A stretch of 35,168 nt of DNA from a virus, in the IMG/VR virus record IMGVR_UViG_3300025133_000349, positions 1 to 35,168 of that record; one strand, given 5' to 3'. Every line of letters begins with the position of its first letter. Within the stretch, counting starts at the first letter, position 1. The position numbers were made by a program, and so were the translations under genes. The notes below the pieces were generated by a model that did no database searches, was not told where the DNA came from, and was given only the letters and a program-made list of their open reading frames with translations. Shown here piece after piece: positions 1,319-35,070 of the stretch.

Positions 1319-2476
1319 CTAGTAGTCAAGTCTTACGCGCAAAGTAACCTCGTTGGTGGGGTCTTTGCGCAGAGGCTCAGAGAGCTTCGCAACTGCGAGC
1401 AGCTCATTGTCAGCCGAATATAAACCAACTGTCGTAAAGTAGGAGACAGGAGCATCCCCGGCCCGAGTTTTAACACGAAGTTTGCTTCCTGTAAGATATG
1501 TTGGATTAGAACTATAGTTAAAGTCACCATGTGATGCTCGACAGAAATAAATTGTTGAATTTAACTCGGTTGTATTATTAAAGGAGACATTGTAAATCCT
1601 GTTTCTAAGTCCATCCGACATTTGTGCAATAGTGGAACCAGTGGAAGCGAGGTCATATCCAATAGTGCTCTTATCACCGACTGTTGTGATTCGAGGGCCA
1701 TGGACATTGCCGGCTGCGTCGAGCGCATATGAATCCGGATGAAGAATACCACCAAAATTAAATATTGAAGCTGAAACTACAGCAACACCAGCCTGGTAAT
1801 AAAGGAGTCCGACAGCATGGCGATCCGGGAAAGAAGTTAATAAATCGTCGTTACCAGCAGTAGAAGATTGTGTAGCATACAATACCCCATACTCACCGGC
1901 CGGTGAATCCACATAATAACCATCTGAGCCGCTATAATCGGTTAATTTCATGCGATCAGTCATGTGGCTACCGGTACCGTGATTAAACCCGCCACCAAGT
2001 GTTCCGCTGATCGATAACTCTAGAGTAAATGAGCCTTTTTTAATTTCGTCTTTTGTTAGAAGACGGGAAAATGGTACAAAATAACACTCTTTCATTGTGG
2101 TGCTGGTAGTAGGCATCGTAAACTTCTTAATACTACCAGTATCGTTGTATCCAACGAGATATTGAGCCATTTGATTATAAATGTTAATCTTTTTTGAATT
2201 TTGAGTATTGGTCGCTCCCGATAGAACGGAGGTGGAGGCATATCCAGTTGTGACATCAAAAATCTGATTTGCCGAGGAACTTAAGTATGGATAGTCAAAA
2301 ACACTCTCAAACATTCCATGGCCATATGTTTTGAGATTGGTTTCTGATCCGAGAGTCGTGCTATCACCTCCATATGTGCCCGAAACAATGGATCCGGTAA
2401 TTGGAATTGCTTCGTGAAGAAGGGTCCTTGTGTTTGCTAGATCATTACTTAAAAAATTCTTAAACGTTGTTGCCAT
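1319..2476 (-). CDS. Tail/baseplate structural protein, 385 aa
   Basis: Complete gene starting at ATG 2476 (MATTFKNFLSNDLANTRTLL), preceded by AGGATAGGATAG as ribosome-binding region in a 16-base gap after the 308-aa gene. From memory, this N-terminus and the C-terminal block around NYSSNPTY ... TTVGLYSADNELLAVAKL ... VRLDY recur in structural proteins of marine T4-like phages, but I cannot name a characterised homologue. The composition is Ser/Thr/Gly-rich with alternating hydrophobic residues, suggesting mostly beta structure. It shares its C-terminal half with the next gene downstream, so a tandem duplication is likely. Its place in a late operon with baseplate genes supports a tail role; binding partner and position are unknown. 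Confidence 0.88.
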   Translation of the reverse strand: MATTFKNFLSNDLANTRTLLHEAIPITGSIVSGTYGGDSTTLGSETNLKTYGHGMFESVFDYPYLSSSANQIFDVTTGYASTSVLSGATNTQNSKKINIYNQMAQYLVGYNDTGSIKKFTMPTTSTTMKECYFVPFSRLLTKDEIKKGSFTLELSISGTLGGGFNHGTGSHMTDRMKLTDYSGSDGYYVDSPAGEYGVLYATQSSTAGNDDLLTSFPDRHAVGLLYYQAGVAVVSASIFNFGGILHPDSYALDAAGNVHGPRITTVGDKSTIGYDLASTGSTIAQMSDGLRNRIYNVSFNNTTELNSTIYFCRASHGDFNYSSNPTYLTGSKLRVKTRAGDAPVSYFTTVGLYSADNELLAVAKLSEPLRKDPTNEVTLRVRLDY

Positions 2477-2492
2477 TATACTATCCTATCCT

Positions 2493-3419
2493 TTATATTT
2501 TCTTAACAAACTTAACTGGTATATCAATACGGTATCCAGTATTCACACCAGTTACTCGAATATTTGAGTTAATTATTTTATAACTGTTGGCGCCAGTGAC
2601 ACCCGTTAAAGATTCTGTTCCACCAATTGTATCAAACAAATGATCACTAGTATTTAATTCAAGAGAAGCTTGAACCTTAAAAACAAGTTTAGTTCCTCGG
2701 GGGCCCTTAATAGAGCCATCGGCGGTACCAACCGCCGTATCCTGAATATCGGCCACATATTCACTATCCGTCCCTCTAGACAAATAGTAAGTCGCGAGTG
2801 AATCATCGTCTATAAAAGAGACGGAAGCCTTTACTCCATCTACTTTTTCAACTATACTACCAAGGCGATTATCAATCTCGACCATATATTGTGTCTCAAC
2901 CAAAAGCGGATCAAGGGAGCGGGCCGGCGAAATTTCTGTTGTATCCAAACCCTGATCTAACCGAATTCGATTTCCGGAGCGCGTTGGCGTCTCTCCCATT
3001 AACACTCCATTGATTGTACTGCCGGCTCCGTCGTCAAACAGTTCGGTCTCTGAATCTGTGTCAACAGCAATTAAGAAATATCCTGTAGAATGTTTTGCCG
3101 TGGAGCTATCATAAGTGGTATTAAGCTTAATAAGAGGAAGGTATAGGAGGTTGTTTCTTGGAATAGAAATAAGTTTTGATTTCATAGAAGCGGCGTTGTC
3201 TGTGAAGGCCTCCAGCACTGGTGTTTGCATAACTTCCAGATCGTAGTAGGCAGAGCCTCTAGTGTCGTCTTTATTATAAAGTTCATAGTTGATTTCATCA
3301 TCACCTAAAGCAAACTTTACAATTTTAAAACTTCCGTCGCCACGGGCCAATCTCATCCGGCCAGTATCTGTTAAAACTGCGTCGAGTATAATATCACCTG
3401 AATTATCTAAAAATGCCAT
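2493..3419 (-). CDS. Structural protein with N-terminal LTxxGR module, 308 aa
   Basis: Starts at ATG 3419 with AGGAGAGG seven bases upstream. The first 45 residues hold a module, DIILDAVLTDTGRMRLARG followed by VKFALGDDEINY, that I recall from many marine T4-like phage structural proteins. The same pattern (LDxxLTxxGRxxLxxG ... AFxDExxxY) opens the 349-aa protein at 9637-10686, so the two are paralogous at the N-terminus. The rest is acidic and beta-rich with no recognised domain. The 56-base leader contains the recurrent decamer at 3446-3455, so this gene may start its own transcript or carry a processing site. A tail or baseplate attachment role is inferred from context. Confidence 0.87.
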   Translation of the reverse strand: MAFLDNSGDIILDAVLTDTGRMRLARGDGSFKIVKFALGDDEINYELYNKDDTRGSAYYDLEVMQTPVLEAFTDNAASMKSKLISIPRNNLLYLPLIKLNTTYDSSTAKHSTGYFLIAVDTDSETELFDDGAGSTINGVLMGETPTRSGNRIRLDQGLDTTEISPARSLDPLLVETQYMVEIDNRLGSIVEKVDGVKASVSFIDDDSLATYYLSRGTDSEYVADIQDTAVGTADGSIKGPRGTKLVFKVQASLELNTSDHLFDTIGGTESLTGVTGANSYKIINSNIRVTGVNTGYRIDIPVKFVKKI

Positions 3420-10688: not shown

Positions 10689-13600
10689 TTAATCTTCCCC
10701 GAGAGTTTCGCCGGCGCCAATTCCTACGGGCCCGCCGACGCCGCCGGCTTGTCCGGCTTGTCCGGCCTGGATGGTGCCTTCCGCCGGCGCCTCTTCTCCC
10801 CCGGGCCCGAGGGCCCCTTGTTGGCCAACTCCCGAAAGTCCACCCACGACGCCGCCGGCGGTAATAATTTGGCCTGGCCCAGCCTCTACAATATCACCCT
10901 GTGGGCCACCAATAGTCTGTTCGATCTGTGTACCGAAGGAGCCCAGATTGGTGGTGAGGACTTGTTCGGTGGTAACATCCTGACCCAATATTTCCTTGAG
11001 AATCCCCTCCCCGCTTCCGGCTTCTCCTCTGTCTCCGAACGCCGCGGCGTCCGCATCCTTTAGTCTCTTAAAGCCAACTTTTCTAGAATCAGGAACTTTC
11101 TCAAAACTTATGCCGGCTTCGATTTGAACCATTTCAACAAGAGAACAGAAATCATAAGGCCAATTCTGTGTGTAAAAAGGCATCTCTGGTTCTTTGTTTA
11201 TTGTTTCGGTGAAGTAATCTCTTTTTGCCCTTTGCTTGACCTTAAACACCATCCACCGCAATTCTTTGTCCATATCAACATAGGGCATTTTTCTTCGTTC
11301 AGTATGTGAAAGAAGTGCTTCTTTTAAGTTACCTATAAGTTCGTTGGCTAGTAATTCATGTGTCACGGATGAAAATGACGATTCTGCTTCGACACCAATT
11401 TTAGGCGAAACGTTTTGCCAAATTTTAGAGATATCATCTTTGTCGAAAGTATGTGAAAATTCGAAAACATACATTGAAATGGGTAGCACATCTGTATTAT
11501 TAACAAAATCAAGAGATGGCGGGAACACATACTTCCTCATCATTCTAACCAAGCGACGATAAGACTCTCCTGCTATTCCCGATGCCGCATCATTTACCGC
11601 GAATGTAGCAAAAAATTTCCTCTCACCTTCAATGATTTTAAACGGAACAGCCACAACAGCCTCAAACATTTTTCTTTTTGAAGGCAATTCACCAATGCGA
11701 ACTGGGTCAGTTTTAAAACCACAAACGTCCACTAGAGACTGAACTGCTGGAGTCTGGTAGGATGCGGTGGTGCCAATCGGGGCGCTATAATTATTATAGT
11801 AAGTTGATGCATCACTATAGTTGTTAACATATGGGCTTTTATTGTTTGAAGAGAAGAGGCCAGCCATGTCCGGCTTAAGAGATGCACTGGGGTGGTTAGC
11901 CAGCCAATCCTCGGGGATGTCTGTAACCTGCATATACACACCTATACCATCTTTTGGGATTCTCCCAAATTGGTGCCACATTCCCCGGGGAATACATGCA
12001 TTTGCATTTTTATTATTACAAACCGTAAGAGAGTTACTACCTGTCCCAATACCATTAAAATTAAGCATAGGTGTTTCAAATTTTGTTTGGATGGACCATT
12101 TTCTCTGTCCATCTTTTACATTTGTATTTTTACTCTTCCTAAAAATGTTTAAACTCGCGTCAAGTTGCATGGCCCACTCATTTATGAAAGGGCCGGCGGA
12201 GGGGCCAACATATACTGTCTGGTTGCCGCCGTCTGGAATGATGCCGATGCCAGAACCTGCATTGGATCCAACATTGTCCCCCGATCCTCCGGTCAAATGA
12301 TATGAGGATCCTGCGTGTTGGCTTAGTGCTTCCTGATCAAAGCGCCACTTTCTTCTAAATGAACCGGCCAAGGGCAACTGACTAGTCTCACCTCCGATTG
12401 ATGCGCTTGTGTTGAACAATGATTCGTGTGGAGAAGCAAAAATTTCGTCAAGAGTTGGTTTATAGGGCTCTCCCGTTTCGTCTGCTTTAAACTGAAAGAT
12501 GTGTGGTGTACTAGAATAATACTGTGTTTCAACGCCGCGGGGCCAAAATATAATATCATACCAGCATTCTCCATCATAATATGGTGGAGTGTGTGAAGCA
12601 TAAACACCATTAGCTGAATCGTAATCATGTATTGAGCCGGCCTTGGCATCGTATCCTGACCACTGATCGTAATTTCCACTTCGGATAAGCCCCAGCGGAG
12701 GACCAAAAGCAGAGGGGCGGGAATACATTGTAAATGTTTCATTTGGTGTTACTTCGATCGCTTTAGCCCCTTCATTTTCTCTTCCTGAAAAAGGATCCGA
12801 GTCACCGACTTCAACGATAGTTCTTGTGTTTTGTGGGACCTCATACGCGCCCCAAGATCCACTAACTAGCTTGGTCTTTGTTTGAGAACGCCACATTTTA
12901 ACGCGCATTCCATACGGAGTTCCTGGTGTGACTGCTTTGAATTCCTTCTGGCGTAGGGATTGGATTGTCGTTAGTTTTTTCCCTTTCAAGAAAAAATTAA
13001 TACTTTCTGCTAAAAAGTTATTAATCATCTTTTTATATTTTGTTCCGCCCGAGCCATCCCAAGCAACGATGCTTTCTATTCTAGCATATGGAGAGGGCTC
13101 ATCATCTCCAATCTCCATATTGGCTAAATAATTCTCCGGATCGATGAGGGCCTCGAAAGGCAACCTCTTATCCCATCCACCAAAATGGTCACTAACGCCG
13201 CGGGTTGCTTCCCGGGATCCTTTTTTCGTGCTAGAAAATATAGCAAAAGAGGCCGAGTTAATAATCATTCTTACATGACCATCAACCATCGTCGATGGAT
13301 CGGCATCATACACACGGGCCCTTTTGGCGCGCTTGGGGTCGAGGCCGTGGGTATTCTTCGACAGCTTAGATTGCACAATCGGATAATCTACGGCTAGCCC
13401 AGACTTAATTGTATTATAAAGAATGCCGGGAGAAAATAAAGGTTTAATAAAATTCCGGATCGACGATGCGTCGGCGGCATCCTCGCCCTGAATTCTACTT
13501 ACTGAAGCACTATAATCAACCAAAAATTGCCTAGACAATTGGATGGTCCTCTCCGCAGGATAGAAGCCGTCGTATGGAACTAACTTTTTAATTGCCTTAC

Positions 13601-16600
13601 ACTTCAGTGTAATTGTGTGCGGATCGACAATACCATCATGATCTTTTTTAATAATTTCAAAATATTTTAAGAAATCAGTATTTGTGAATGTCTCAAAGAA
13701 ATTCTGATCAGAACTATTTTGTGCTAAAATGGTACCGCTCGGAACTCCAACAATTCTAAATAACTTTTGATTCTCAACTAAGAAATCCTCAGAATGTTCA
13801 GAATAAAAATCCAAATGATCTGTAATTCTAAACTCTGGAATAATAGAATATGCTTGGCCTACGGCCTTGATATCGGTGAAATACTCATCATATGTATCAT
13901 AAAAGGGATTTGTTGCATTTGTCGCGAAAGCACTAGAAGTTCCTTCATAACGACCCGCGTTCGTGCCGGCATCCCAGAATGCTTCGCCACGGAACATAGA
14001 AGCCGCCTTAAGAAGGTTTCTATCGTGAGCGGCGGAGAGAATATCGGTGCGATCCATACCCCAGCGCGCCTGGACCGAGGAGCTAAGCGGTAATATATGC
14101 TTTCTTGCATAAAGAGCAGCAGGATAAGCGTTGGATGATGTCCCCGCATGATAGTGGGAATATTCATTTTGAAGTTCTCCGGATCGGTGACCTTCAAGAT
14201 TAGAAGCGGTCAACCCACCGGACAGCACCGTAAAAGTATCCAAGGTTTCAAAATCTTCCATCGCGTCGAGGGCCCAGCAACTTTGGGTGACAACATAGCC
14301 GGCTGAATTTGTAGGCTTCTTTTCCTTTCCGAGAGTTGTTCGGTTGGATCTGTCATCCCTCCAAAAATTATTCTTATAATTCGTGCGGCCCCTGATTGTT
14401 TCTTTGTAAATATTTCGCCTTGATGGATATACAACTTCTTTATATTTTAACGAAATCAATCTCTTGATGGGGTCTGTACTAGCATCTTTCTTTTTTCTTC
14501 CATAGATATTTAAAAATTCTCTATAAGTGGAGTCTTTAAAATCTGTTTTCACACCTATGCTTTCGTTAAAATTCGAATTATTAAAGAAACCATAATTATT
14601 TCCAAAACTAGCCTTGACGACGGCTTGGGATCTTAGTTCTTTCCCGGCTCTCGTCTCACCTGTTTTGACAACAAATTTATAAATCAAAGGCTTGTTTGCT
14701 ATATCTACAGCAGATTGTGTTATATACAGAGTCTCACCGTTTCTAGATGACACGTCAATGCTGCCTCCCGAAACTAAAGCAACAATTGGAGGACCGGACC
14801 GAGGTGTATGCGTGTATATATTATTCTTGCGATAGTGTCTTGCCAACTGGCCTTGACCTACTCGTATCTGTTTCCAAGTCGGATAGCCGTAGGCGCCATT
14901 TCTGTGTGACATGAGATGGTTAAAGGCCTCAGCGGATTTGGCGCGGCCGTTGGGAGTCGTGGTATTCGGGATTCTTTCTATGAAACCACCAGGAGTATTG
15001 GTAGCTACAGTAAAGGACCCAGTAGTAGAAAAATTATAATAATGTCTGTTATCCGCGGACAAAGGGTATCCAAGAATAAAGTCTGAGGAACTAATAGGTT
15101 CAAGAATGGTGGTGTTCATACCAACAAAATTAGTCGGATAATTGGATGCAAGGCCACTATCCGTGCGTGCCGCGGGCTTTCGCCATCCGGCGGATGTCAA
15201 GACCGACCCTAGTTCACTAGCAGTAGTAAAGTTGATAGCACTGACATAGGAATAACCCATTTCTCCACCAGGCAACGAGGCTGGAAGAGAACTAGAAACC
15301 CTTGTTAGTCCATCATATGGAAGATATCCAAATATGATACCCTGTGTCGAAGTATACGATGCCGTGATCCAAGAATATTGAAGGTCTGATCTGGGAATCA
15401 TATGCTGAACATAATAATTATCATAAACTGAGGCTGTGGCGATTAGGCCATCGGAGCCAGTTCTGGCCATCTTTAATCTATTTCTATGAACTTTGTGGTA
15501 ACTTGCCGTGTAATTTGTAACATAGTCTAGTGAAATATCACCACCACTTCCGGAACGAAGGCCAAAACGCTCACTTCTCTCGGTTAAAAGCGTTCGCAAC
15601 GGCTGTCTAACTGTTATATTTCTATAGTTCAAGTTGTTGTATGGAGAATATTGACCTGACTCATAGTCTAAGCCGGGGCCACCGATGGTATCGCCAGCAA
15701 CCTCTGGTCCGCCCGGGGCGGAGAAGCGTTCCACAATAACGTGCTCTCTGCGCGTCCTAGTGGGCTTAGCGTAGTCCACAAGGCCTCCGACATACCCAAG
15801 CAGGTCTGTCGTGACGGACGCCGTAGAGAAGCCCTCAGACTTCACAAACTCGCTGTTGTTTGTCCGGCGATCTGAGGTTTGGACAACTTCGTAGCGCTTG
15901 TTAAAATTACCCATTGATATAGTGTTCGAACCAGATCTGTGTTGGATATTCTTGATATTGAGTGGCCGTTTGGATATTTCATCTCGACGGTATTGTGGAG
16001 AAGAAGACGGGCGTTCTAAGGTTGAATCATTGGCCCTAAAGATAGCGTTGTTTAAATGCCATGCCTCGGCGCGAGTGGCCGAGGAAGTAAGAGTGGGATC
16101 AATTGTAATGTCGGTATGCCTGTGTCTGTGGCCGCCGACATGTTGTTTAGTAAACGGGCCCTGCATCGGTATATCATAATCGTCGCCATAAGAATCATTG
16201 TGATAACCAGCATATTCAAGACCACTAGTATCGGACCTATATCCTGTGCTACCCGCAGAAGAACTATATATATCCACCGGGGGCACAAATTTGTTTGTAG
16301 CATAAGAATTTGAATCTAAATTCTCTGTTAAGAGCAGATCCTTAAATTTGCGCTTTGCCTGCTTAATCGGGGGCCCAGTTTCAGCGACATCAATATCTTT
16401 AAAGTCTCCTTTGGAGGCATCGAACCTTGCATTTGTCTTACCTCGTTTAAAAATAGAAAATACTGCATCAGGCTTGGAGCCGCGTGGATAATTATATCCT
16501 CCACCTATCTGTGTCGGGAACCCAACAGACATTTTAAAAGGTCGAGTTTGTTGGCGTAGAGCATAGGCTGAGCCCTCATATATTCCTTCTTTCCCGGTGC

Positions 16601-19600
16601 CGTCATTAAACTTATCAGCGGATGCGGAGTTGAAACTGAGGATAATATCGCTTATTGATTGGCGGGCTTCGGCGATGACTGTTGCTGTCCCGATCGCCCC
16701 GAATGCTGTATTACTTCTACTGGCGCGCTCTTTCCACCAGCGAGCGCTTGTATTTTGTTTGCCGTCATCACCACCAGTAAAGCCGGCGAGCGTAGTCTGA
16801 CTCATATCGTCTGTGACGGTTACATTTCCAGCGGCGCCGGGCACTGCTTGAGTCAAAGTAATTAACTGTGCGCCGTCGGCTTCGGCTGGAACAGCAGAAA
16901 CTATAATCTTACCGTTGTGGCCATTGGCATGCTCTATGGCTGCCTTAAGCTGAACTAAGAAAACGTTCTGAGAATGAGGCGTCGCCGGCGGTAAGTTGAG
17001 GGCAACCGCAATGGCGCCGACGAGGCCGGCCCCGGCGACCTGAGATCCTATGTCAGTGTCAGACGCGAGAATATCACCAGTTGCAAGGGCGCCGGAGTCA
17101 AGGTCGTTGCAGACACAATATGTTTTTTCGGTGCCGTCTGTTGAAGTAATAACAATGGTCTCTTTCTCATCCATTCCACTTGCTGCGTCACCATCTGCCA
17201 CGGTTATCGTTGCTGTGGCTGCGGTGGGCAGTGGCGCGTGTCCATATTGCCAGTTATAAGATAGTTCTCCTATACCCTTAACTCTGCCTTCAATCTTATC
17301 TTCACTACTTCCCCAGCGCTCATTACCCTTATAATCAAGATGTGGATATTGGTGTTGGTATTTCGATCTTCCAAGAATATGATCCTCAACCACGGTACGA
17401 ATTTCATCAGAAACATCGGCCGAGGCGGGGACAAGCTGCTGTAAGAAAATTCCGAGTGAATTATCAATCCATTTATAATAATCTACGAACTTATCAAAGT
17501 CGGGATTATTTTGAATCTTTTCAAAGAATAAATTCCTTAATAATCTTAATCCCTTGTAATCTCCACGATATTTATTAACCACATCTCCGATAAGATTGTT
17601 AAATTCAACAATGGTTCCGAAGTAATTTATCATTTCCTGTGATACAACACCATACATGCTCTTTTCAAAAGCAAAGAACATTTGTGATGGGGAGGCATCG
17701 CGAGGAAATAGTTCGTCATCCCTAGTAAGAACATTCACAGCATCATCAGAATTGATAATCTCTGGTAGTCTTTGTCTGTTTGTCGGAATGAATTCTTTGG
17801 AGATTACCGTGGTCGAAGAGACTTTTAAAGGGAAGTAGCCCGTGCCGGCATACTGATTTGCTATAATGTTTGAAATCTTTCCTTCATTAGAATATCGTGA
17901 CTCAAGAATTACAGAGCCCGAAGAGGCGTCTTCCACAGTAAAAAACCCAGAAGCATCAGACCCTGTTACTTGAGAGAAATCCCAATGCATAGCCAAAGAT
18001 TCTATATTTGGTATTGTCTGATTGTTAATCGCCACGCCGGAGGGATCCGGATTAAAAGCTATATTTCTACTTGGAAATTTTGTTCCGACATTTAAAGGAT
18101 CTTTGGCGTGCTCGATAATGACTTCATTCTCTAAATAAGAGACCCAGTGACGCAAAGAAGAAATTTTAACATCAGTATTAGTCACAACAGAAGAACTGAA
18201 ATCTGTTCTGTCCGCGCCGATATAATATCTACGATCGGCCGTGAGAAACGCATCCTTCTGGGCGCTAGCGGTTAATTGAAACTGGTTTTTTATTGTGCCA
18301 AATTCTGTGTTGACCCCAAACCACTCCAAAATTATTTGATCTGATGCGGTGGAACCAGAAAGCTTGTTAGCATAAGGCCACTTCTCGCCCCTTGCTCGAA
18401 CTGCAAAATTCCATTTTTGATTGTCATAAACATTACTATATACGGAACTTGTGAGACCAAAAGTTCCGGTTCTGCCCTTTAGTTCAAAATATCCATCACG
18501 AGAATTACGGGCAGTTCGAACAAAATAAAGTTGGAAATTATCATCATTACCTGCCGTCTTCCAAATAAAATCCGAGGGCCCTCTTGATTCATGATAACCA
18601 AATATCGAAGAACTCAAGAATGGAGTTGGAAAATACTTAGGATTATCAAATTCATATTTTCTTGGGAAAACAACCTCCACCTCTGCTGTGTTGGTAAGGT
18701 ATTTGCTTGTTCCAGAAATGTGAGTGACCATTAATGTTTCTGCGTTGGTCGCAGACTGGCTTTGATACACAATCCCATCAAACCGATTTGGGTGATTAAA
18801 ATCAGCATAATTCTTACGAGTTGTGGTTGAATAATCAGTGTCTTCAAATTTGAATTCTGTATTATTACCGTATGCATTAAACTGAACAACCTCGTCGCCA
18901 ATTCCGTAGCAACGAATCAAATTTCTAAACGCCTTTTCGGTGCCTTTTGACTTATAAATATAAATTAAATTGTTATAAATATTTTGATAAATAAGGTTTT
19001 TAACTTCATTAATATCTAAATCATACGCCCTGTCGTCCCTGCGATTCGCGAATCTTTCAAGTATATCTGCATCGACAAATATCTCCGGTACGGTTAAGCC
19101 CTTAGAACTTAATAGATTTCTCGCGAATGGAGTTGGCTTATGACTTGAACTCAAGTAGGTATTGTTTGATAAATGAGGCAGGGCTTTAATCTGTAAGTTC
19201 AAAGTATCAAAATAAGAACCAATAATCTGCGTTAATCTTTTAACATTTTCGGAGCCGTCAGTTTCGTCCTGTTCAACAACCCAAGACGGAAGGTAATCTT
19301 TGATGCTTGCCTGATTTTCATGATCATAAACACTACCGGTGGTAGACAGTTCACTATAAAGAGTCTTTACATCCGGATGGAAGTCATATATAATTGGATC
19401 CTTGTATTCTACGGTACCCGATACTGCTGCGGAAGAAGACACCATAGCAGAACCCAACTCTCTTGCAGCCTGGCCAGGATATGCATACCAAACCCCATTT
19501 GAAATACGGCCCGAATAATCCAAAACAGCAGAATCTACAGAACTTGTGCCTGTTATACCTTCATTGAACTTGTAGTAAACACCAAGCTCTGCGTTGGCTA

Positions 19601-20828
19601 TTTCGTTATTTGTCCCACCTCTTACTTGTGTCCACCAATTATTTTGTATATCTTTTTCATCCCTCTTTCCTTTCCAATACCTAAACTCGTCTATCGATGC
19701 AGACAAGCGGGCCTGGCCTCCAAGTTCAAAATCGGCTAGCTTCACACCATATACATTTCCTGAAGGTGCAGTCTGTAATGAACCTATATGTGCATTCAAA
19801 GATCCGGTTACTTCGCCAAAGTCTAAGGCTGTTGTATTCGTGTTATCTAAATTACCATCAACATATGCCGTTGTTGTGATGCCGGTAGAACCAGATTCTA
19901 CTGTGACCGCGTAATGGTGCCAACTATTGTCGGCTATTGAATCCTTTGTATATGCGCTCGAAAGAAGATTTAAATCTGCTACACTAGAGCCAGATGCGAG
20001 GTGTAACCGAAGAGGATCGGCGCCTGCTTCGTGGGGCCCTGAAGCCGTAAGATAAAGTAAAAACCGGCCATAACCCGCGTGAGCGGTCGATTCCTCGGGC
20101 CCGACGGCACTAGCCGTAGACTGCCCATTCCAGAGATCAAAAATTACTTCTTTCGAGTTTTGAAGTAAAATAGTGGCGGAAGTCTCAAAGGATTCTTTTC
20201 TAAGCCAAAACTCTACTGACACTCCTTTGGACAAATCAAATTTTAAATTTGATTCACGAGTGCCAACGCGGCCAAGAGGCAATGTGCCATCGGTGGTGTA
20301 AATGTCTGTATCGTAATAATTGGCGCCCGCAAAGGAAGTGTGTAAAAACCCGGAAGACATCCCTCCAGAGGCTGTATGGGGTCCGCCAACGATTTTGATG
20401 TACTCTTTGGTATCGTAACTACCCCAGCCGGAATTCTGAACTAGATATCCGGTGCCGGCTGCCAGGGACGTTCCAAAATGGATATATCCGTTTGTGCGAG
20501 GATATCTATTTTCAAAAATATAAAGATCAAGATAATTCGATTCATTGTGAAATTTAGTTATTTCTTCTTCAGCGCCGTCATATGGAAATTCACGATAAAT
20601 TCGCGAGAGCGCGTCTTCATAATATGACTGCGCGGATCCATATGTGACAAAATTATTCGGATCACTAAAGTCAACCTGCGGAATAAATCGATTTATCCGC
20701 TTGATTTGTTCTCTTACATTATCAGCGGATTCAAGTTCAGGTGCGTTCTTTACTACTTCTTCTTCAAGACTAGTTGATTTAAGAACGGCCTGTGGTTTGT
20801 TAGTATCAAATAGTTTCTTAATACCCAT
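10689..20828 (-). CDS. Giant baseplate wedge-like protein: LamG domains plus gp7/gpI-like segment, 3379 aa
   Basis: I choose ATG at 20828 (MGIKKLFDTNK) over the in-frame TTG at 20834, because two neighbours also begin MGIK or MGVK. Residues about 195-425 are a LamG/concanavalin-like domain (VSVEFWLRKESF; DNSWHHYAVTV; SIDEFRYWKG; GVYYKFNEG). Residues about 590-655 (NEVKNLIYQNIYNNLIYIYK, then SKGTEKAFRNLIRCYGIGDE) resemble the KGT-helix segment of P2 tail protein I and T4 gp7. A second LamG-like domain spans about 756-916 (RRYYIGADRT; ISSLRHWVSYL). A helical stretch follows at about 1026-1163, then an inserted beta domain at about 1203-1353. The next 1900 residues are unrecognised. The last 120 are Gly/Ala/Gln-rich and encoded by GC-rich DNA. 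It follows gp25-like and gp6-like genes, as expected for the third wedge-core subunit. The gp7-like assignment is inference; the LamG folds are fairly clear. Confidence 0.85.
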   Translation of the reverse strand: MGIKKLFDTNKPQAVLKSTSLEEEVVKNAPELESADNVREQIKRINRFIPQVDFSDPNNFVTYGSAQSYYEDALSRIYREFPYDGAEEEITKFHNESNYLDLYIFENRYPRTNGYIHFGTSLAAGTGYLVQNSGWGSYDTKEYIKIVGGPHTASGGMSSGFLHTSFAGANYYDTDIYTTDGTLPLGRVGTRESNLKFDLSKGVSVEFWLRKESFETSATILLQNSKEVIFDLWNGQSTASAVGPEESTAHAGYGRFLLYLTASGPHEAGADPLRLHLASGSSVADLNLLSSAYTKDSIADNSWHHYAVTVESGSTGITTTAYVDGNLDNTNTTALDFGEVTGSLNAHIGSLQTAPSGNVYGVKLADFELGGQARLSASIDEFRYWKGKRDEKDIQNNWWTQVRGGTNNEIANAELGVYYKFNEGITGTSSVDSAVLDYSGRISNGVWYAYPGQAARELGSAMVSSSAAVSGTVEYKDPIIYDFHPDVKTLYSELSTTGSVYDHENQASIKDYLPSWVVEQDETDGSENVKRLTQIIGSYFDTLNLQIKALPHLSNNTYLSSSHKPTPFARNLLSSKGLTVPEIFVDADILERFANRRDDRAYDLDINEVKNLIYQNIYNNLIYIYKSKGTEKAFRNLIRCYGIGDEVVQFNAYGNNTEFKFEDTDYSTTTRKNYADFNHPNRFDGIVYQSQSATNAETLMVTHISGTSKYLTNTAEVEVVFPRKYEFDNPKYFPTPFLSSSIFGYHESRGPSDFIWKTAGNDDNFQLYFVRTARNSRDGYFELKGRTGTFGLTSSVYSNVYDNQKWNFAVRARGEKWPYANKLSGSTASDQIILEWFGVNTEFGTIKNQFQLTASAQKDAFLTADRRYYIGADRTDFSSSVVTNTDVKISSLRHWVSYLENEVIIEHAKDPLNVGTKFPSRNIAFNPDPSGVAINNQTIPNIESLAMHWDFSQVTGSDASGFFTVEDASSGSVILESRYSNEGKISNIIANQYAGTGYFPLKVSSTTVISKEFIPTNRQRLPEIINSDDAVNVLTRDDELFPRDASPSQMFFAFEKSMYGVVSQEMINYFGTIVEFNNLIGDVVNKYRGDYKGLRLLRNLFFEKIQNNPDFDKFVDYYKWIDNSLGIFLQQLVPASADVSDEIRTVVEDHILGRSKYQHQYPHLDYKGNERWGSSEDKIEGRVKGIGELSYNWQYGHAPLPTAATATITVADGDAASGMDEKETIVITSTDGTEKTYCVCNDLDSGALATGDILASDTDIGSQVAGAGLVGAIAVALNLPPATPHSQNVFLVQLKAAIEHANGHNGKIIVSAVPAEADGAQLITLTQAVPGAAGNVTVTDDMSQTTLAGFTGGDDGKQNTSARWWKERASRSNTAFGAIGTATVIAEARQSISDIILSFNSASADKFNDGTGKEGIYEGSAYALRQQTRPFKMSVGFPTQIGGGYNYPRGSKPDAVFSIFKRGKTNARFDASKGDFKDIDVAETGPPIKQAKRKFKDLLLTENLDSNSYATNKFVPPVDIYSSSAGSTGYRSDTSGLEYAGYHNDSYGDDYDIPMQGPFTKQHVGGHRHRHTDITIDPTLTSSATRAEAWHLNNAIFRANDSTLERPSSSPQYRRDEISKRPLNIKNIQHRSGSNTISMGNFNKRYEVVQTSDRRTNNSEFVKSEGFSTASVTTDLLGYVGGLVDYAKPTRTRREHVIVERFSAPGGPEVAGDTIGGPGLDYESGQYSPYNNLNYRNITVRQPLRTLLTERSERFGLRSGSGGDISLDYVTNYTASYHKVHRNRLKMARTGSDGLIATASVYDNYYVQHMIPRSDLQYSWITASYTSTQGIIFGYLPYDGLTRVSSSLPASLPGGEMGYSYVSAINFTTASELGSVLTSAGWRKPAARTDSGLASNYPTNFVGMNTTILEPISSSDFILGYPLSADNRHYYNFSTTGSFTVATNTPGGFIERIPNTTTPNGRAKSAEAFNHLMSHRNGAYGYPTWKQIRVGQGQLARHYRKNNIYTHTPRSGPPIVALVSGGSIDVSSRNGETLYITQSAVDIANKPLIYKFVVKTGETRAGKELRSQAVVKASFGNNYGFFNNSNFNESIGVKTDFKDSTYREFLNIYGRKKKDASTDPIKRLISLKYKEVVYPSRRNIYKETIRGRTNYKNNFWRDDRSNRTTLGKEKKPTNSAGYVVTQSCWALDAMEDFETLDTFTVLSGGLTASNLEGHRSGELQNEYSHYHAGTSSNAYPAALYARKHILPLSSSVQARWGMDRTDILSAAHDRNLLKAASMFRGEAFWDAGTNAGRYEGTSSAFATNATNPFYDTYDEYFTDIKAVGQAYSIIPEFRITDHLDFYSEHSEDFLVENQKLFRIVGVPSGTILAQNSSDQNFFETFTNTDFLKYFEIIKKDHDGIVDPHTITLKCKAIKKLVPYDGFYPAERTIQLSRQFLVDYSASVSRIQGEDAADASSIRNFIKPLFSPGILYNTIKSGLAVDYPIVQSKLSKNTHGLDPKRAKRARVYDADPSTMVDGHVRMIINSASFAIFSSTKKGSREATRGVSDHFGGWDKRLPFEALIDPENYLANMEIGDDEPSPYARIESIVAWDGSGGTKYKKMINNFLAESINFFLKGKKLTTIQSLRQKEFKAVTPGTPYGMRVKMWRSQTKTKLVSGSWGAYEVPQNTRTIVEVGDSDPFSGRENEGAKAIEVTPNETFTMYSRPSAFGPPLGLIRSGNYDQWSGYDAKAGSIHDYDSANGVYASHTPPYYDGECWYDIIFWPRGVETQYYSSTPHIFQFKADETGEPYKPTLDEIFASPHESLFNTSASIGGETSQLPLAGSFRRKWRFDQEALSQHAGSSYHLTGGSGDNVGSNAGSGIGIIPDGGNQTVYVGPSAGPFINEWAMQLDASLNIFRKSKNTNVKDGQRKWSIQTKFETPMLNFNGIGTGSNSLTVCNNKNANACIPRGMWHQFGRIPKDGIGVYMQVTDIPEDWLANHPSASLKPDMAGLFSSNNKSPYVNNYSDASTYYNNYSAPIGTTASYQTPAVQSLVDVCGFKTDPVRIGELPSKRKMFEAVVAVPFKIIEGERKFFATFAVNDAASGIAGESYRRLVRMMRKYVFPPSLDFVNNTDVLPISMYVFEFSHTFDKDDISKIWQNVSPKIGVEAESSFSSVTHELLANELIGNLKEALLSHTERRKMPYVDMDKELRWMVFKVKQRAKRDYFTETINKEPEMPFYTQNWPYDFCSLVEMVQIEAGISFEKVPDSRKVGFKRLKDADAAAFGDRGEAGSGEGILKEILGQDVTTEQVLTTNLGSFGTQIEQTIGGPQGDIVEAGPGQIITAGGVVGGLSGVGQQGALGPGGEEAPAEGTIQAGQAGQAGGVGGPVGIGAGETLGED

Positions 20829-20830
20829 TA

Positions 20831-22363
20831 TCAATTCTGCCTTGATTGAACTTTAAACTTAAATGTTTCCGGTTGTTCGACCCAAGAGCTGATATCTTCA
20901 TTATAGAATGCAAATTTAATCCCATACATATAACCTGTCTCTAGCATCCCCATGTCTAAATCAAAATAAGAGCCCGATGCATCGTAAGACATAACTGTGT
21001 GTTTTGTGCTGCCTGTTCCATATGGAATAACCTTCAAATCATCTACAACTCTGTATATCTCGTATGAACCGCTCTCAACAACCTGAACTTGCGGCGATGC
21101 GACCGCCTTGGTGTAAATAGTTGGGCTCCAATCTTTTTGGCGTGTATACACCCTAAATCTTCCCGTCTCGTTAAAGCGATACACATTCTTAAGATTTGTT
21201 ATTGAAATAGAGTATTCGTTGCTTGGGGCCGTAAAAGACGGCTTTAATACCATTGGTTTTATTGAACCGGTTTGATATTCCACCGATCCAGTACCACCCT
21301 TAAACCAAACATCATAAAGCGTAGTAACAGGTGTTATAGAAGAAGTGATAGCAACAGATGCCGAATATATCCCTTTCGAAACATAACCGCCGGTAGTAAC
21401 TGTCGGCAATGCCGAGCGGACATAAGTGCCATCGGCAACTAAACTAATGGCGGAACCAGACGGCGCCGTATCGTCAGATGAACCTGAATAAAAGCTTACA
21501 TAAATCTCACCAGTCCCGACGCGTGGAATATTTCTTAGGCGGCCGCGGAAATAGTTATAAAAATAAATAGTATTTAAGTTTTCTGCTGCGGTGGCCAATG
21601 AGCTGCTATAATAAAAGTTGCCCCGGTCATCCTCAATCGAAGACGCCCAACGGGCTTCAATATATGGCCTTTTGAAGAAAAACTCTGTTCCTCTTCCAAA
21701 AAACTTCTTTGTGTAATAAGAACGAGAAAGAGTTTCGTAATCTTTTGATATATAAATTCCTACGCCTTCATCATCCTTAGAACCTAGAATGTTGCCGGCA
21801 CTATTCACCCATTGTTCCACAAGGGTGGTAATATCAACCTCTATATCTTCTGTCCCCACGTCAAAAGATGCTGTGTAAGATGAAGAGGTATCTGTACGAT
21901 AATCACCCCCTGTATCAGTCCATGCAATCTCCCCAGCAGAGGAAGAAAGGCGGCTGGTCCAATTGGATGAACCTTTGTCTTTATAAAGCTCCATATCTAA
22001 GCCAGTGCCTTCGAACCACGAACTAGAAACGGGTGCGATATCCATCGTATACGATTTGGGTAAAGTTAGCCCATGGGGTGCATTATATAAGCGTAAATAA
22101 AAATTTACAGAACCGGAGTCAGGGATTACGCCGTCGGTGCGATCGGCCTTGATCGAATTCGTTGACGCCGTACAATTAAATTTTATAAGAATTCGAGACT
22201 TCTCAGCGCTGGCTGAAGAAGTTCCGGCCTGACCATAGATGGTAAATACTTCCAAAATATCTGCGGCGCCCATATTTGAACCGGTTCCGCGAGTAGTAAG
22301 GTTCTCCTCGTAAGCATTGGTAATCGTATTATCTGATGTTGCATAATATCTTTTTACGCCCAT
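20831..22363 (-). CDS. Baseplate-associated protein with DNRLRE-like beta domain, 510 aa
   Basis: The ATG at 22363 overlaps the TAA of the gp6-like gene (TAATG), with AAAGGGAC upstream. Residues about 55-240 follow the DNRLRE/jelly-roll pattern seen in bacterial surface proteins: SRILIKF (56-62), a strand ending LRLYNA, IAPVSSSWFEGTG (about 109-121), NWTSRL, VDITTLVEQWVN (176-187), GVGIYIS (200-206), and a closing RPYIEARW (232-239). The C-terminal half has further beta-rich segments (YRFNETGRFRVYTRQKDW; YGIKFAFYNEDISSW). Start MGVKRYY echoes MGIK in the two giant proteins. It lies between the gp6-like and gp7-like genes, so it probably joins or decorates the wedge. The domain family assignment comes from pattern reading and needs a profile search. 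Confidence 0.87.
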   Translation of the reverse strand: MGVKRYYATSDNTITNAYEENLTTRGTGSNMGAADILEVFTIYGQAGTSSASAEKSRILIKFNCTASTNSIKADRTDGVIPDSGSVNFYLRLYNAPHGLTLPKSYTMDIAPVSSSWFEGTGLDMELYKDKGSSNWTSRLSSSAGEIAWTDTGGDYRTDTSSSYTASFDVGTEDIEVDITTLVEQWVNSAGNILGSKDDEGVGIYISKDYETLSRSYYTKKFFGRGTEFFFKRPYIEARWASSIEDDRGNFYYSSSLATAAENLNTIYFYNYFRGRLRNIPRVGTGEIYVSFYSGSSDDTAPSGSAISLVADGTYVRSALPTVTTGGYVSKGIYSASVAITSSITPVTTLYDVWFKGGTGSVEYQTGSIKPMVLKPSFTAPSNEYSISITNLKNVYRFNETGRFRVYTRQKDWSPTIYTKAVASPQVQVVESGSYEIYRVVDDLKVIPYGTGSTKHTVMSYDASGSYFDLDMGMLETGYMYGIKFAFYNEDISSWVEQPETFKFKVQSRQN

Positions 22364-24612: not shown

Positions 24613-27600
24613 TTAATCACAGTCCTCTCCGTCCGCATCGAACGGGCGACTCAATAACCTTCCTCTTTCCCACCAACGCAAACCGTCTTCAAAATTAATC
24701 TTTGGTCTAATTAGATCCCTAAGATTAGTCGGGCCAGTATTTGGGTCGGTTTCATTGCTAGAATCGAAATCAATTGCCTGTGCTGCTTCATATAAACTGG
24801 TAAACAATTGTTTGGCGGCGAGCCGGGAGTCCTTGTATGCTTGTGGGCCGCGATTCCATCTATAAAATTTCTTCCCTTTCTTGCCGCCGGCGACCTCCCA
24901 CATATCTCCGCCAGTAGAAGGATAACCAATATTGCCCACAGAATCAAAAAAAGTCATAGCACTATAAATAGATTGAAGTGATATAAATCTTGAAATAGGA
25001 AAAATATACTCAAACATAGTCTTATATTCTGGTGTTTTAACCAACTCCTCAATTAAACAGTATACGTCATAGGAATCGGGGTCGAAAAGAGTAAACTCCT
25101 GATCAGGTATGGGAAGTTCGGCAGACGCAATTGGTATTAAATAGCGTTTTTTATTGTCTCTGTTCCTAACTCGGAAGGCTTTCTGGCTTATAACAACCTC
25201 TTCGTCGATCGTCGCGGCCAGTGGTCCGAAAGCTTTCTGATTTTCACTAGTTGGCTCCGGTACATAACAAATGCGCAAACCAAACTTCCACCCAGTAATA
25301 GGTATATCATGTTTGTGTCCGTCAGCGCCTGGATCCATTTGGGCTCTCTCAACCTTTGTTTTTATAATCTCGTGGTAGTGTTCGTTTCCTCGTAAATCCG
25401 TGTGAGTTGATGTTATGCCATTCCCGTCGAGATCAATATCATATGTATGGTTGTGATTTTCAATGTTTTCTGTCTCTCCGGTTCGCTCGGGGTTACCCCA
25501 AAACTCAGAAATATCTCCTTCAAGGCCATTGCGCTTGAACTTTTTGACTTTGCTATTCCAGGCTTCTATATTAACAATATCAAATAAAGTTTTTTTCCTC
25601 GACATAACTTCCCCTCGACGGTCGAATTCATCAATGGGTGGTCCAGATTTATCCTCAATACGAATGTATTTTTCTAACACAAAGGGCCAATAAGAATCGA
25701 TTGAGGCGCGTTTAAAAAGAGGATTTTGATTTTCTTCTTCGAATTCACTTGATTGCAACGCCTTAATATTGTAAGTTTCAGGATCGTTAGGATCTGACTG
25801 CACATCAAACGGCCCGTCGCTATACACCGCTCCTCTTATCCATTCTTCATTAATGAGAAATAAGTGATGGACATTGCTTACCAAGGGAGGAAGTGTTAAG
25901 ACAAATTTTTCTTTTAGTATAGCCAACTCTTCTCGTATGTAACGATTCAACATCATGAGAGCAGAACTCTCATTTTGTCTAATTGTTTTTTCGAAAGCGC
26001 TCCTTTTGGCGGCTTCCGCTGCGTGCTTACTAAATCTACTACTACCAGTTCCGATCCCGATAATATCACTGGAGGCTGCTGTGGAGAAATTTCTTTTGAA
26101 AATGCTTTGCGTTTTAATGGCGATGTCCGAAAGAACCTCCAATCCGCCGGCATATTCTCTATAATAACTATTTACAGCCCGTATTATCTCCGATAATGCC
26201 TCTTCTTCTGCCAGAGTAAAATCCCCGTCGGCCAAGCCAGAGTCACTTTCTCTTACTAGCATACCAGAATCTATTTTTCTAACTGTATTATTAACGGCTT
26301 GTTCAAGAAACCTAAAATAATATTCTTCATCTGTGGCGTTTGAACGACGGACGCCATCTTGATAAAGGCCTTGCTTTATTCTTTCGGCTATAAAACTTTC
26401 CAATAAATTGTCATAATTACTATCGCTTAACTCAAATATTGTGAATACTGGTACAGCCCTTATAAAAATGTCAAGGGTATAAATTCGTATGACTGCGCGC
26501 AATGCGCCGTCCAAATTCGCAGCATCTTCAGATGTCATAATTCTATCAAATGGCGCCTCGATAGAGCATAAAGGATCCCCCTCCAACCTATCATCACGAA
26601 GCAAATTCTGCGACATGTCGCTAACACCTGCTCTAAGATCTTCTAGATCAAATATGGGCTTTGAGGATGGCTCGCAACCATCTACCTCCGGCAACAAGGC
26701 CTCCGATATGTCTAGCCAACCCTTAAACCTTCTAGCCTGCACATAAAATGGCTTAGGGGCATCATCGCCTAATCGTTTACCAAGAAGGCCACCATACATC
26801 TCAGGATCCATATATGTGATTTTCGGTCCCTTGTAAGGAGAATGTCCGAACTTAAAAGCTTGAGCAAAATTATCTAGCCCTATTAATTCGTTTCTTTCTG
26901 CATTCTTCTCTTCTTTGCCTCTGTTAACATCATATCCCTCTGGCTGTTTAGGCTTATTGTTTTTGCCCGTTTTCCCCGTAGAAATAAGATATGATATCCT
27001 CTTAAGGAAACCGGAATTTAATTTATCAAACTCAGTGGGTTCTCCTTTTTTAGCCAAAGCAAAGTGATCTCTAAATTTAGATTCAAGTGCTATCCTTCCT
27101 AACTCCGTTCTAGAAACGCTAGAATTATCTAATAGAATTTTTAAGAAATATTGATTTAAAATTTCTACTTGATAGGAATCGGGGATTAAAGGAGTCTTAG
27201 GAAGGTTTAACGAATCTATAATATTTAAAGCACCAACATCAGAGGCACCGGGAATTTTAAGATCATAACTTGTGTAAGAATATTCCTCATCTTCACCCAG
27301 AATAGATTCCGGAGGCATATTATCCCCCATTTGTTTTATATCTCTCTTGCTTAAGGGCTTGCCTTTTTTGTTTCTGATGGTTTCTACAATTTTAAGACCA
27401 TATTCGTTCTCTGTTTTCAAAAATCCTGTTTCTTCATCATAGAGATTATAATCATATTCAACTGAAACAGAATACGGTGGATCGATCTCATCTCCGCCAT
27501 GTTCTCTTGGATATGAATCATAAAGCAAGCGAATATCAGCAGATGAAGTATCTGGGAGTTCTAGAAGTTTTGATCTGTTTCCGTAAAACTCAACGAAGGA

Positions 27601-30600
27601 GTTGGCCTTATCTGCATTAAAGGGGAGTTTTCTTTGGGTACTATCTTTCCATTTTGATAATTTTCTGGTTCCCGTTAGTACCCCAGCAATACTTACATTC
27701 TTCCCGTTAAGAACGTTGTGTAATCGCTCTTGAGGTGAATGAACTTTGTGTTTTAATTCATCCTTTGTAGGATCCTTGCCAAAAATAACCTGATCACAGG
27801 CCCACTCTAAATCATCTGCTGCGCTAGCGTACTTCTCGGGCCAAGTATTTCTCGTGCGAAAGTTAAACTCTTCAATAAATGCTCTAACATACTTTTTACG
27901 ATCCTTGATTCTATCTCTATTCTTCCTCTTTACTTTTTCATATTCACTCATTGCATCTTGAGGAGTATTAATAGTTTTAAATTCTGGCTCCATATTTCTT
28001 AATGTGATCGCCAGATGTGCCCCGACGGTCGGAGGGTAACCACCCTTGGTGTATCCCCAAAAGTTTTTACCTGCATATTCATTTTTCAACATATTACCAT
28101 AAATATCTATGGGGAAATTTTCGTCGCGGGACGTGGGATCCTCGGCCGCATCTGGGATTTTAACAGCATTATCTGACCACATTTCAAAAAATCCCAGGTC
28201 TTCTGCTAACGGGGATCCAAAATGTCTTACTAACCAGTTATGCTTTTTAAATGGCCGGCCCATAGTATCTGAAAGCAGTGCGTTGAGTACTCCGCCGTGG
28301 CCCGTAAAGTGATTAATTGGACTCATAAGATCCTTAATATGAGCTTCCTCAACCATATCAAACATTGATTTTGTAATTTCATCGTTAAAATCATTGGTTA
28401 TAGGATCGTTTGCTGGTAAAAACCCATCTGCGGGGCATCCTTGGTCACTCAAAAGATTCGGAAAATCCGAGAATGGGCCGTATTGGAGAAGATTCAAAAG
28501 ATCATTCAAGTCTTGTACGGCCTGATCTTTTAAATTATCAAGTTGTTCCCGACACTCCTGCTTGCTCAGGCCCTTTTGTGCCAGAAGATCACACCTTAAA
28601 TTTTCAATTCTTACTCTAACTTCTGGGGCGCAGGGATAAACGGGTTGCAAAAGAGCAGGGGGGAAGTTTAATTTTTTTCTTAAATCTTCCAAGGTTGGTA
28701 CAAAGATGCCCAAGGCCGGAAAGAAGGTTGTGAATGCAGAGGGATCCGAGAAGATTTCAGCAATACACGGCGAAGTGCTCGTCGCGGCGACCTCAAGCGC
28801 CAATCTCATTGTTTCTTGGGTTGGATTGCCTGTAAGAAGTTCAAGTATTTGGCCTTGTGTAAGCATAAGAGATAAATCTTCAATAAAATCTCCCATTTCT
28901 GAATTAGAAAGCATTTCTAAGCATGTCGCATCTCTTCCTCCAAGAGCACCAAACAACTTCTGGAGGGAGTCTAACATGTCTTCCCGCGATGCATCGGGGC
29001 ACAGACTCTCTCTAAGAAGGTTTTCAAAGTGATTATTGTCTGCGGCCAAGTCAGCTAAGTTCGCTCCGAGTGATTTTAAGGCGTCACAAGCAAGAGACAG
29101 AAGTTTATCGAGAATAAACTTTAAGACCTGTGCCATAATTGCCAGAGCAACCCCTATAATCGTTTCTGCCAATGCCTGGAGTAGCCTCATAAATATATCT
29201 TTGAAAAATTCACCTATTTTATCCGCCATGGCGGGAAGGGTTAAATCAGAATCCCAAGAACAAATTTCGGCCTCTAACGAACCTAAAAAGTTATCTAGTC
29301 TCGGATTCATCTGTAGCGGAGACGCAATCTTACAAGGGCTGTGTTTAAACATCCTGGCCACGATTGGGGCGCCCGGGATTCTATTCATAGTTTTCAGAAG
29401 CTCATCGGCGCCGATTGCGGTAAGCATAGTTCTTCTATAAGCATCAACTATTTCTTTCTGGATGGCGCCGAGGGCTTCTCCATAAGTCCCGCCGGCGCCA
29501 GGCGGTGACTCACCTTCGTTAAAGGCAAGCTCCGCGTCTTCGTCAAGGCCGATGCCTCCCTGGCTTTCCATTTCTCTGATCATACTTCTGTTGTATTTTT
29601 TAAGCTTCTTTAATAATTCCTTTTGTTCCTCTTCTTCTTCTGGATATTCAAAGCCCGTGGACTCTAACTCAGCTATTGCTTCTGCTTCTGTTGGGGTTGT
29701 GGATTCGTTTAGTTCGCCGCTCTGAAGTTGTTTGGCCATCTTTCTTTGGCGAAGCGAGAACCCACCACCAGAATAATTTCCGGAAACATACCCCGCTTCC
29801 CAAGGGGCCGGAATATCGCCGACCTCTGCTTTGATTTTATCTATAATTTTCTGTTGGTCTTCTGTCGAAAGCCCAAGAAAAGATCGATTAAGATAATTGT
29901 CATCCATCGCTCTAAAGGCGGCTGCTGCGAGGGCTTTAGTCGAACTCTCTTCTCCCATACCTTGTGCCACACAATCAGCGGCGCTCTTGATTATTGCTAA
30001 CCAACCACACCAACCAAGCCTATCGTTAATCCGGCCCCAAAAGAACTTCTCGTCATTTTGGTAATATGGGCGGAAGGAGCGCGCATACTTTCTCTTTTTT
30101 ACACTTTTCTCTCCTCCTATCTCATATTTTACTCCTTTTTCGAGGCCGCCTACGGCGTCTTTATAACCACTAGATTTCTTAACGTTCGATTTGAATCCAT
30201 AAACAATCTCTTCTAAAATAATATAAAGATAAGGATCTGATTTTTGAATTCGGTCTTTACCTTCTTGAAAAGTAGTGTCGAAAAGCGATTTAAAATCTGC
30301 GGCGCCGGAAACAAAAGCCTGTCCTACCTGCTTTATTCCTCCGTCGTATTCATTACATGACTCATCCTCGCCCCCTCCGGAGAATTTCTTCAAAAATTGA
30401 TCGGGCGCCGATAAAATACAACCCTCAATTGAAGACATTAGTGTATCAAAGTCTTCGTCTACACTAGTTCCCGTTGAGATACATCCAGCAATTCTACTTT
30501 GATCGTATATTGTATTGCCATTGCTTCCATACAATATCTCTAAGGGAGGGTGTGTATAATCAGTTATAACTTTAAGCCAGGGTGTTGGTTCTCTAGCCGT

Positions 30601-34784: not shown

Positions 34785-35070
34785 CTTCGGGCCCTCCCTG
34801 AAGCATATCGAATATATCGGCTCGATCGTCGTCACTCAAACCTGTGTCTCCGGCTTGCTGCTTATGGATGAGACCAGATATCTTAACCAACTGCTCATTG
34901 CTCCTCTGAAGCGTCTCAACGTACTTAGCAGCGACCGAGCCGACTTGGGAGTGTCTCTGCTCGTCTTTCGAGAGAAACCTCATCACGTCGCCCAGAAGCT
35001 CTTTGGTGACATCCCTGTCATCTTGTATATTCTGTATGGCGGTTTCAAGATAGTGGTCTAGATTTTTCAT
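34777..35070 (-). CDS. Small helical protein of unknown function, 97 aa
   Basis: ATG 35070 overlaps the TGA of the gene upstream (ATGA), and the stop overlaps the GTG start proposed for the lysozyme gene, so three genes are translationally chained. The sequence (MKNLDHYLETAIQNIQDDRD...) is almost entirely helical and charged. Its central block VAAKYVETLQRSNEQLVKIS and the ending LSDDDRADIFDMLQ look like conserved family motifs that I recall from small proteins in marine phage genomes, but no function comes to mind. The C-terminus is Gly-rich (QGGPEGG). It could be an assembly chaperone or a small structural or packaging factor. Length, frame and coupling support a real gene. Confidence 0.85.
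   Translation of the reverse strand: MKNLDHYLETAIQNIQDDRDVTKELLGDVMRFLSKDEQRHSQVGSVAAKYVETLQRSNEQLVKISGLIHKQQAGDTGLSDDDRADIFDMLQGGPEGG
34792..34798 (-). promoter_or_regulatory. Shine-Dalgarno deciding the GTG start of the lysozyme gene
   Basis: The coding strand reads GGGAGGG followed by CCCGAAG and GTG at 34784. It sits within the last codons of the 97-aa gene and gives a normal seven-base spacing. The alternative GTG at 34835 has only a weaker AGG five bases upstream. Confidence 0.55.

Follow-up and report, generated by a model that had tools for sequence, protein, structure and literature searches.

The giant reading frame and its neighbours

The stretch of DNA analysed here (the window) comprises positions 1 to 35,168 of IMG/VR record IMGVR_UViG_3300025133_000349, a 35-kb virus record. 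Its minus strand carries an open reading frame of unusual length, which starts with ATG (Table 1). The chance of a frame as long as this staying open at the local base composition is about 1e-89, and the other two minus-strand frames across it contain 140 and 329 stops. The giant gene that had been proposed from the DNA alone is thus real. Along the minus strand it follows a gp25-like gene, a gp6-like gene and a 510-aa gene. This order, as originally predicted, was borne out by matches to PF04965, phrog_219 and TIGR02243, and it is seen in the window and in most relatives. The 510-aa gene that separates gp6 from the gp7-like gene encodes an uncharacterised component of the wedge cluster that is kept in cultured relatives.

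Several other genes of the window may be mentioned. Directly upstream of gp25 lies a gene for a 2492-aa protein (24613-32091) without a Pfam match, at the place of which most relatives have an ORF of about 1500-2100 aa. Two fibre-like proteins (3-1307 and 1319-2476) have a common C-terminal region (1e-5) that recurs in five proteins of Microcystis phage Mel-JY01. A 476-aa protein (33405-34835) has a weak Phage_lysozyme2 match (E 0.04) and is a possible tail lysozyme.

Table 1. Features of the giant protein and its gene cluster, and the sites at which the giant is split in relatives
Feature	Position in the window	Strand	Basis or locus
Giant wedge-protein-3 (gp7/gpI-like) ORF, putative	10689..20828	-	ATG at 20828; 3379 aa plus stop
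gp25/gpW-like baseplate wedge protein, 134 aa	24196..24600	-	PF04965, 1.6e-12
gp6/gpJ-like baseplate wedge protein, 599 aa	22363..24162	-	phrog_219, 3e-20; TIGR02243, 4e-16
510-aa wedge-cluster protein	20831..22363	-	homologue of 369/386/429-aa proteins in cultured relatives
N-terminal helical domain, residues 1-118 (YGSAxxYYxxAxxRIY...YPYDG)	20475..20828	-	alignment A1; AF2 pLDDT 76-90 over 41-120
LamG/concanavalin-type domain 1, residues 197-394	19647..20240	-	PF13385, 9.6e-7
Putative gpI/TIGR02242-type wedge core, residues 506-650	18879..19313	-	TIGR02242; profile-profile match
KGT segment YKSKGTEKAFRNLIRCYG, residues 625-642	18903..18956	-	aligned with T4 gp7 731-751 and P2 gpI KGT
Second LamG-type beta-sandwich, residues 665-895	18144..18836	-	AF2 model, mostly pLDDT 77-94; PDB LamG/LNS matches
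Second conserved helical region, residues 1050-1165	17334..17681	-	A1 profile matches Mel-JY01, LR756508 and immuto here
Lineage-specific inserted domain, residues 1200-1352	16773..17231	-	N/C junction; present in the window and L017
C-terminal extension, residues 1356-3250	11079..16763	-	separate gene in the L261 clade
Gly-rich tail, residues 3251-3379	10692..11078	-	27% Gly, barely conserved
Split near residue 1200			L261; L070/L258 repeat the N gene
Split near residue 1790			L020/L058; stop and new ATG
Split near residue 1880			L067; stop and new ATG
Split near residue 2165			L023, L025, L039; stop and new ATG
Split near residue 2440			L042; stop and new ATG

Domains of the N-terminal part

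A helical KGT segment near residues 590-655, flanked by two LamG-like domains, had been predicted. The segment was found within that region, and five of its residues (K626, K628, G629, N636 and G642) are invariant across 68 relatives. The two flanking domains were recovered by different routes. The first matches Pfam PF13385 with 29.5 bits, above the gathering threshold of 27.6, and the second is visible in the AlphaFold2 model only, by its predicted fold. The model of the N-terminal part (pLDDT 74) supports two LamG-type sandwiches, and the best PDB fold matches of the first 1200 residues (Foldseek) include tandem LamG/LNS pairs, for example neurexin L2-L3 and laminin LG4-5.

Relatives of the giant protein

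Relatives of residues 1-1200 are encoded on more than 598 stretches in IMG/VR, and tblastn gave no match in the INPHARED phage records. Among the loci read, the N- and C-terminal parts lie in one ORF at 65, which makes the fused form the commonest in the clade; 59 of these loci are complete and encode 2824-4031 aa (median 3310). The longest relative record, G001 (193 kb), carries a T4-type terminase, portal and major capsid protein (phrog_2, phrog_213 and phrog_138), genes that sit in this relative and not in the window. In BFVD there are close uncharacterised relatives as well as more distant ones.

The nearest records by gp6 and terminase are Flavobacterium phage immuto, Mel-JY01 and the 484-kb uncultured phage LR756508. 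Their clusters contain gp25, gp6, a homologue of the 510-aa gene and then a 1265-1404-aa protein, which in immuto and Mel-JY01 is preceded by one further gene. The profile of residues 1-1200 (A1) matches this protein in immuto (1265 aa, 4.4e-14), Mel-JY01 (about 1336 aa, 4.5e-14) and LR756508 (1404 aa, 2.2e-10), and family profiles match the core with P values of 3.6e-16 and 5.2e-13. The immuto (gp109) and Mel-JY01 (WWT39511.1) proteins, both annotated as hypothetical, are therefore clear homologues of the N-terminal part of the giant and share its position downstream of gp25, gp6 and the 510-aa-gene homologue, but are without its C-terminal extension of about 2000 aa. Since the cultured relatives carry a homologue of this length, the part comparable to gp7 is residues 1 to about 1200. 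Of the original estimate that more than 2000 residues are attached to a gp7-sized protein, a remainder of about 2000 aa stands.

Some matches were set aside as evidence for a host. A published WOR-3 'chromosome' (CP070664.1; L082, L292-L294) contains scattered pieces of these viruses, but its match was rejected as prophage or host evidence because contigs are joined there by runs of 100 N; matches on small contigs in archaeal, Maricaulis and Flavobacteriales bins were likewise not used.

A probable gpI-type core in the N-terminal part

The TIGR02242 model matches 38 of the 68 core members at E<=1 (best 9e-4). Every core member falls below the curated cut-off, and far below it (19.3 bits against 51.85). 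P2 gpI itself also scores under the cut-off, which thus picks out close relatives and is no defining mark of wedge protein 3. Pfam Tail_P2_I (PF09684) matches five of the 68 (best 0.12). In a profile-profile comparison with hhalign, the core together with its cultured homologues aligned with the TIGR02242 family, for which the alignment was built in this analysis, over 112 columns (probability 81%, P=1.2e-5). This combined profile scored 40.2 against the family, compared with a maximum of 15.3 in 60 column shuffles, none of which reached the true score, and 10.1 for the reversed control. Against P2-type gpI, the core and cultured homologues gave P=0.0086. The TIGR02242 matches and the controlled profile-profile comparison support residues ~505-650 as a probable gpI/TIGR02242-type core.

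The likeness to T4 gp7 is narrower. Core profiles gave P=0.003-0.018 over just some 20 residues, the KGT segment, and in one of the four comparisons one shuffle in 60 matched or exceeded the true score; the direct link to T4 gp7 thus rests on position and one short segment. A search with the A1 profile did not find T4 gp7. The isolated core gave a poor model (pLDDT 59; best Foldseek match E 2.7), and Foldseek results for the whole residue 1-1200 model were dominated by LamG matches. A match of the core profile to Legionella IcmE (3e-8) was rejected, as it came from short degenerate IcmE repeats, each weak alone.

Whole records were also scanned for a rival gp7 candidate. PF09684 gave no match in the window's record or in six longer marine virus records. 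TIGR02242, which found P2 gpI as a positive control (1.5e-7), had the giant as its sole match in the window's record and in three of the six longer records, and the 1265-aa homologue as its sole match in immuto; it found nothing in T4, Mel-JY01, LR756508 or the remaining three marine records. No better gp7 homologue thus emerged from the seven marine records, all of which may be incomplete.

The C-terminal extension

Almost every relative covers residues 1-1200. Residues 1201-1355 are nearly missing from the relatives, and residues 1356-3250 diverge faster. The extra residues had been expected to be mostly unrecognised, and this proved correct: the C-terminal ~2000 aa had no match in Pfam, searches of the PDB with the C-terminal profiles A5-A8 gave no credible match, and the profile of the last segment (A7) had no match in PHROGs. 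The extension was not found in the immuto, Mel-JY01 and LR756508 genomes with segments A5-A7, and a T4 match of a C-terminal profile was rejected as a stop-riddled 78-aa frame. In the searches made, the C-terminal ~2000 aa are confined to this marine group. Since this part has no recognisable homologue, it is gene context alone that points to a role in the baseplate.

An insert of about 153 residues lies exactly at the N/C junction of the window's giant and at the same place in L017. Related inserts occur elsewhere in the same chain in L013/L014/L018 and in L061, which suggests that the inserted domain is mobile.

Fused and split versions

On the 66.9-kb contig L261 the cluster is collinear with that of the window, and the giant is represented by two genes, of 1278 aa (N) and 2674 aa (C), the latter beginning with its own ATG. 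Between them (13832-19292) lie genes for 280, 974, 225 and 297 aa, the last three of which belong to the tail sheath, tail tube and baseplate hub families. The C gene precedes the same downstream genes as the window's giant. Two further loci, L070 and L258, carry the same N gene (1272-1278 aa) with the same next genes as L261. In G001, homologues of the sheath, tube and hub families are located at about 103-116 kb, apart from the giant at 52-63 kb.

Four further sites between residues 1790 and 2440 are split by a stop and a new ATG (Table 1), the aligned parts being separated on the query by a few to about 25 residues. Several split loci, in related genomes from different samples, show a Shine-Dalgarno-like GGAG(G) at the new start. 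L019 and L267, two loci that look like frameshift errors, were left out of the count of true splits. At a different locus, L270 (2639-7635), the giant is broken inside LamG domain 1 by two inserted genes whose upstream DNA is almost the same, possibly a true insertion or a chimeric assembly.

In the gp6 tree, the groups split near residues 1200 and 2165 each form one supported clade nested among fused relatives, so repeated fission of a fused giant appears the simplest reading. The deep forks of the tree are weak and L067 lies near its base; repeated fusion may have occurred instead, most so for L067. Given that the parts are separate in one clade and that clean splits occur at four further sites, the giant is probably a modular, expanded wedge protein 3.

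The original prediction also held that a single chain joins the wedge core and host-binding decorations. This describes the window and the other fused loci, but in several lineages the ~2000-aa remainder is encoded separately, and a single chain is accordingly not what makes the design work.

Discussion

Collectively, gene order and homology favour, with a probability of roughly 0.77, the reading that the giant is the baseplate wedge protein 3, in the position of T4 gp7 and P2 gpI, of an uncultured marine T4-like myovirus clade, with a peripheral extension. In the baseplate of the contractile tail it most likely forms the outermost subunit of the wedge, enlarged by two domains of a sugar-binding type and by the extension. 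Of the proposed gp7/gpI identity, the position and the gpI/TIGR02242-type core are supported, and the direct likeness to T4 gp7 is limited to the KGT segment.

A competing view, to which we give a small chance, makes the giant a tail-fibre or adsorption protein which happens to lie downstream of gp6 and carries a short KGT look-alike, the true gp7 being elsewhere. Adhesins typically show LamG domains and a large unrecognised region, and the failure of the A1 profile to find T4 gp7 fits this view as well. However, the match of the core extends over most of the TIGR02242-type domain and not the KGT segment alone, as judged by shuffled and reversed controls; neither PF09684 nor TIGR02242 picks out another gene in the six longer virus records, and the cultured relatives retain the homologue downstream of gp25 and gp6. 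A chance fusion of gp7 with an unrelated tail-fibre or adhesin protein that has no part in the baseplate is the less improbable alternative, although still unlikely. The separation of the two parts in L261, with sheath, tube and hub genes in between, speaks for it, together with the missing homologue of the C part in cultured relatives. Against it, more loci of the clade have the fused form than any other, and the C part of L261 has kept the downstream genes of the window's giant, which together suggest a lasting partnership of the two parts.

The splits themselves can be read in other ways. If the giant were a polyprotein cleaved into wedge and peripheral parts, fused and split genomes would give the same virion proteins, and clean splits at five different positions would be in keeping with this; the variation of these positions between lineages argues against one shared processing site and leaves cleavage improbable. 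The least credible account, which the two frameshift-like loci might suggest, is that the splits stem from errors of assembly or sequencing and that every virus has a single chain: it is contradicted by the stop and new ATG, several with GGAG(G), in related genomes from different samples, by the complete genes between the halves in L261, and by the recurrence of the 1272-1278-aa N gene with its next genes in L070 and L258.

We return to a modular wedge protein 3 in considering how the giant might work. Residues 1 to about 1200 would be the wedge protein proper, made of an N-terminal helical domain, a LamG domain, the gpI-type core with its KGT helix, another LamG domain and a helical arm. This part would join two gp6-like subunits into a (gp6)2-gp7 unit, with the gp25-like protein as its cap, and the LamG domains could lie on the outer face and contact surface glycans. 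Residues ~1356-3250 would be a clade-specific peripheral module, likely the baseplate rim or a carrier of receptor-binding fibres, that may work fused or as one or two separate chains. We further suggest, tentatively and at somewhat less than even odds, that in the marine clade a single modular giant wedge protein 3 underlies the whole wedge rim, and that evolution has cut it in at least five different places with its coding content kept.

Compared with known systems, the giant shares with T4 gp7 (PDB 5HX2/5IV5) a position downstream of gp6 in a T4-like virus, the KGT/KGI helix segment and the form of a large multi-domain wedge protein. T4 gp7 is 1032 aa long (predicted as about 1030) against 3379 aa, the likeness is detectable over about 20 residues only, and gp7 directly follows gp6, whereas the giant is separated from gp6 by the 510-aa gene. 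On the evidence of the profile-profile match to the TIGR02242 family, P2 gpI (Tail_P2_I, PF09684; TIGR02242) would share its core domain with the giant, but is only 176 aa long, and individual scores lie below the curated cut-offs. Known wedge protein 3 ranges from 242 aa in XM1 to 1032 aa in T4 (PMC10457771), and receptor-binding proteins in known baseplates attach to it (PMC10811340).

The joining of wedge protein 3 to host-binding modules, which had been called unusual, has a precedent. Gp119 of phage Vp4 is an 831-aa wedge protein 3 with carbohydrate-binding modules that was shown to bind host cells, and in Deep-Blue two proteins take the place of another Vp4 baseplate protein (PMC11406892); decoration and splitting are thus each known from elsewhere. 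Both Gp119 and, by the reading proposed here, the giant are wedge proteins 3 with carbohydrate-binding folds, a likeness by description and not by sequence comparison, but Gp119 belongs to another virus family, has another type of binding module and is four times shorter. In AlgoCIS Alg12, the gp7-like part is exposed on the lateral wedge surface, is described as an evolutionary hotspot and as one for re-engineering, and binds tail fibres (PMC8894135); it is fused to a gp6-like part, whereas in the window gp6 has a gene of its own and the extension comes after the gp7-like part. What is new here is the size and the modular series of wedge protein 3.

Marine viral metagenomes are rich in this clade, with more than 598 stretches, and the main baseplate protein of the clade was previously uncharacterised; the assignment would tie a giant protein that recurs there to a known machine. 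With fused and split versions at hand, it becomes testable whether wedge core and host-binding periphery must share one chain, and the cultured relatives immuto and Mel-JY01 offer a laboratory route to the core. If the proposed reading is true, these viruses provide a natural series for asking whether the covalent linkage between wedge core and periphery matters for baseplate triggering.
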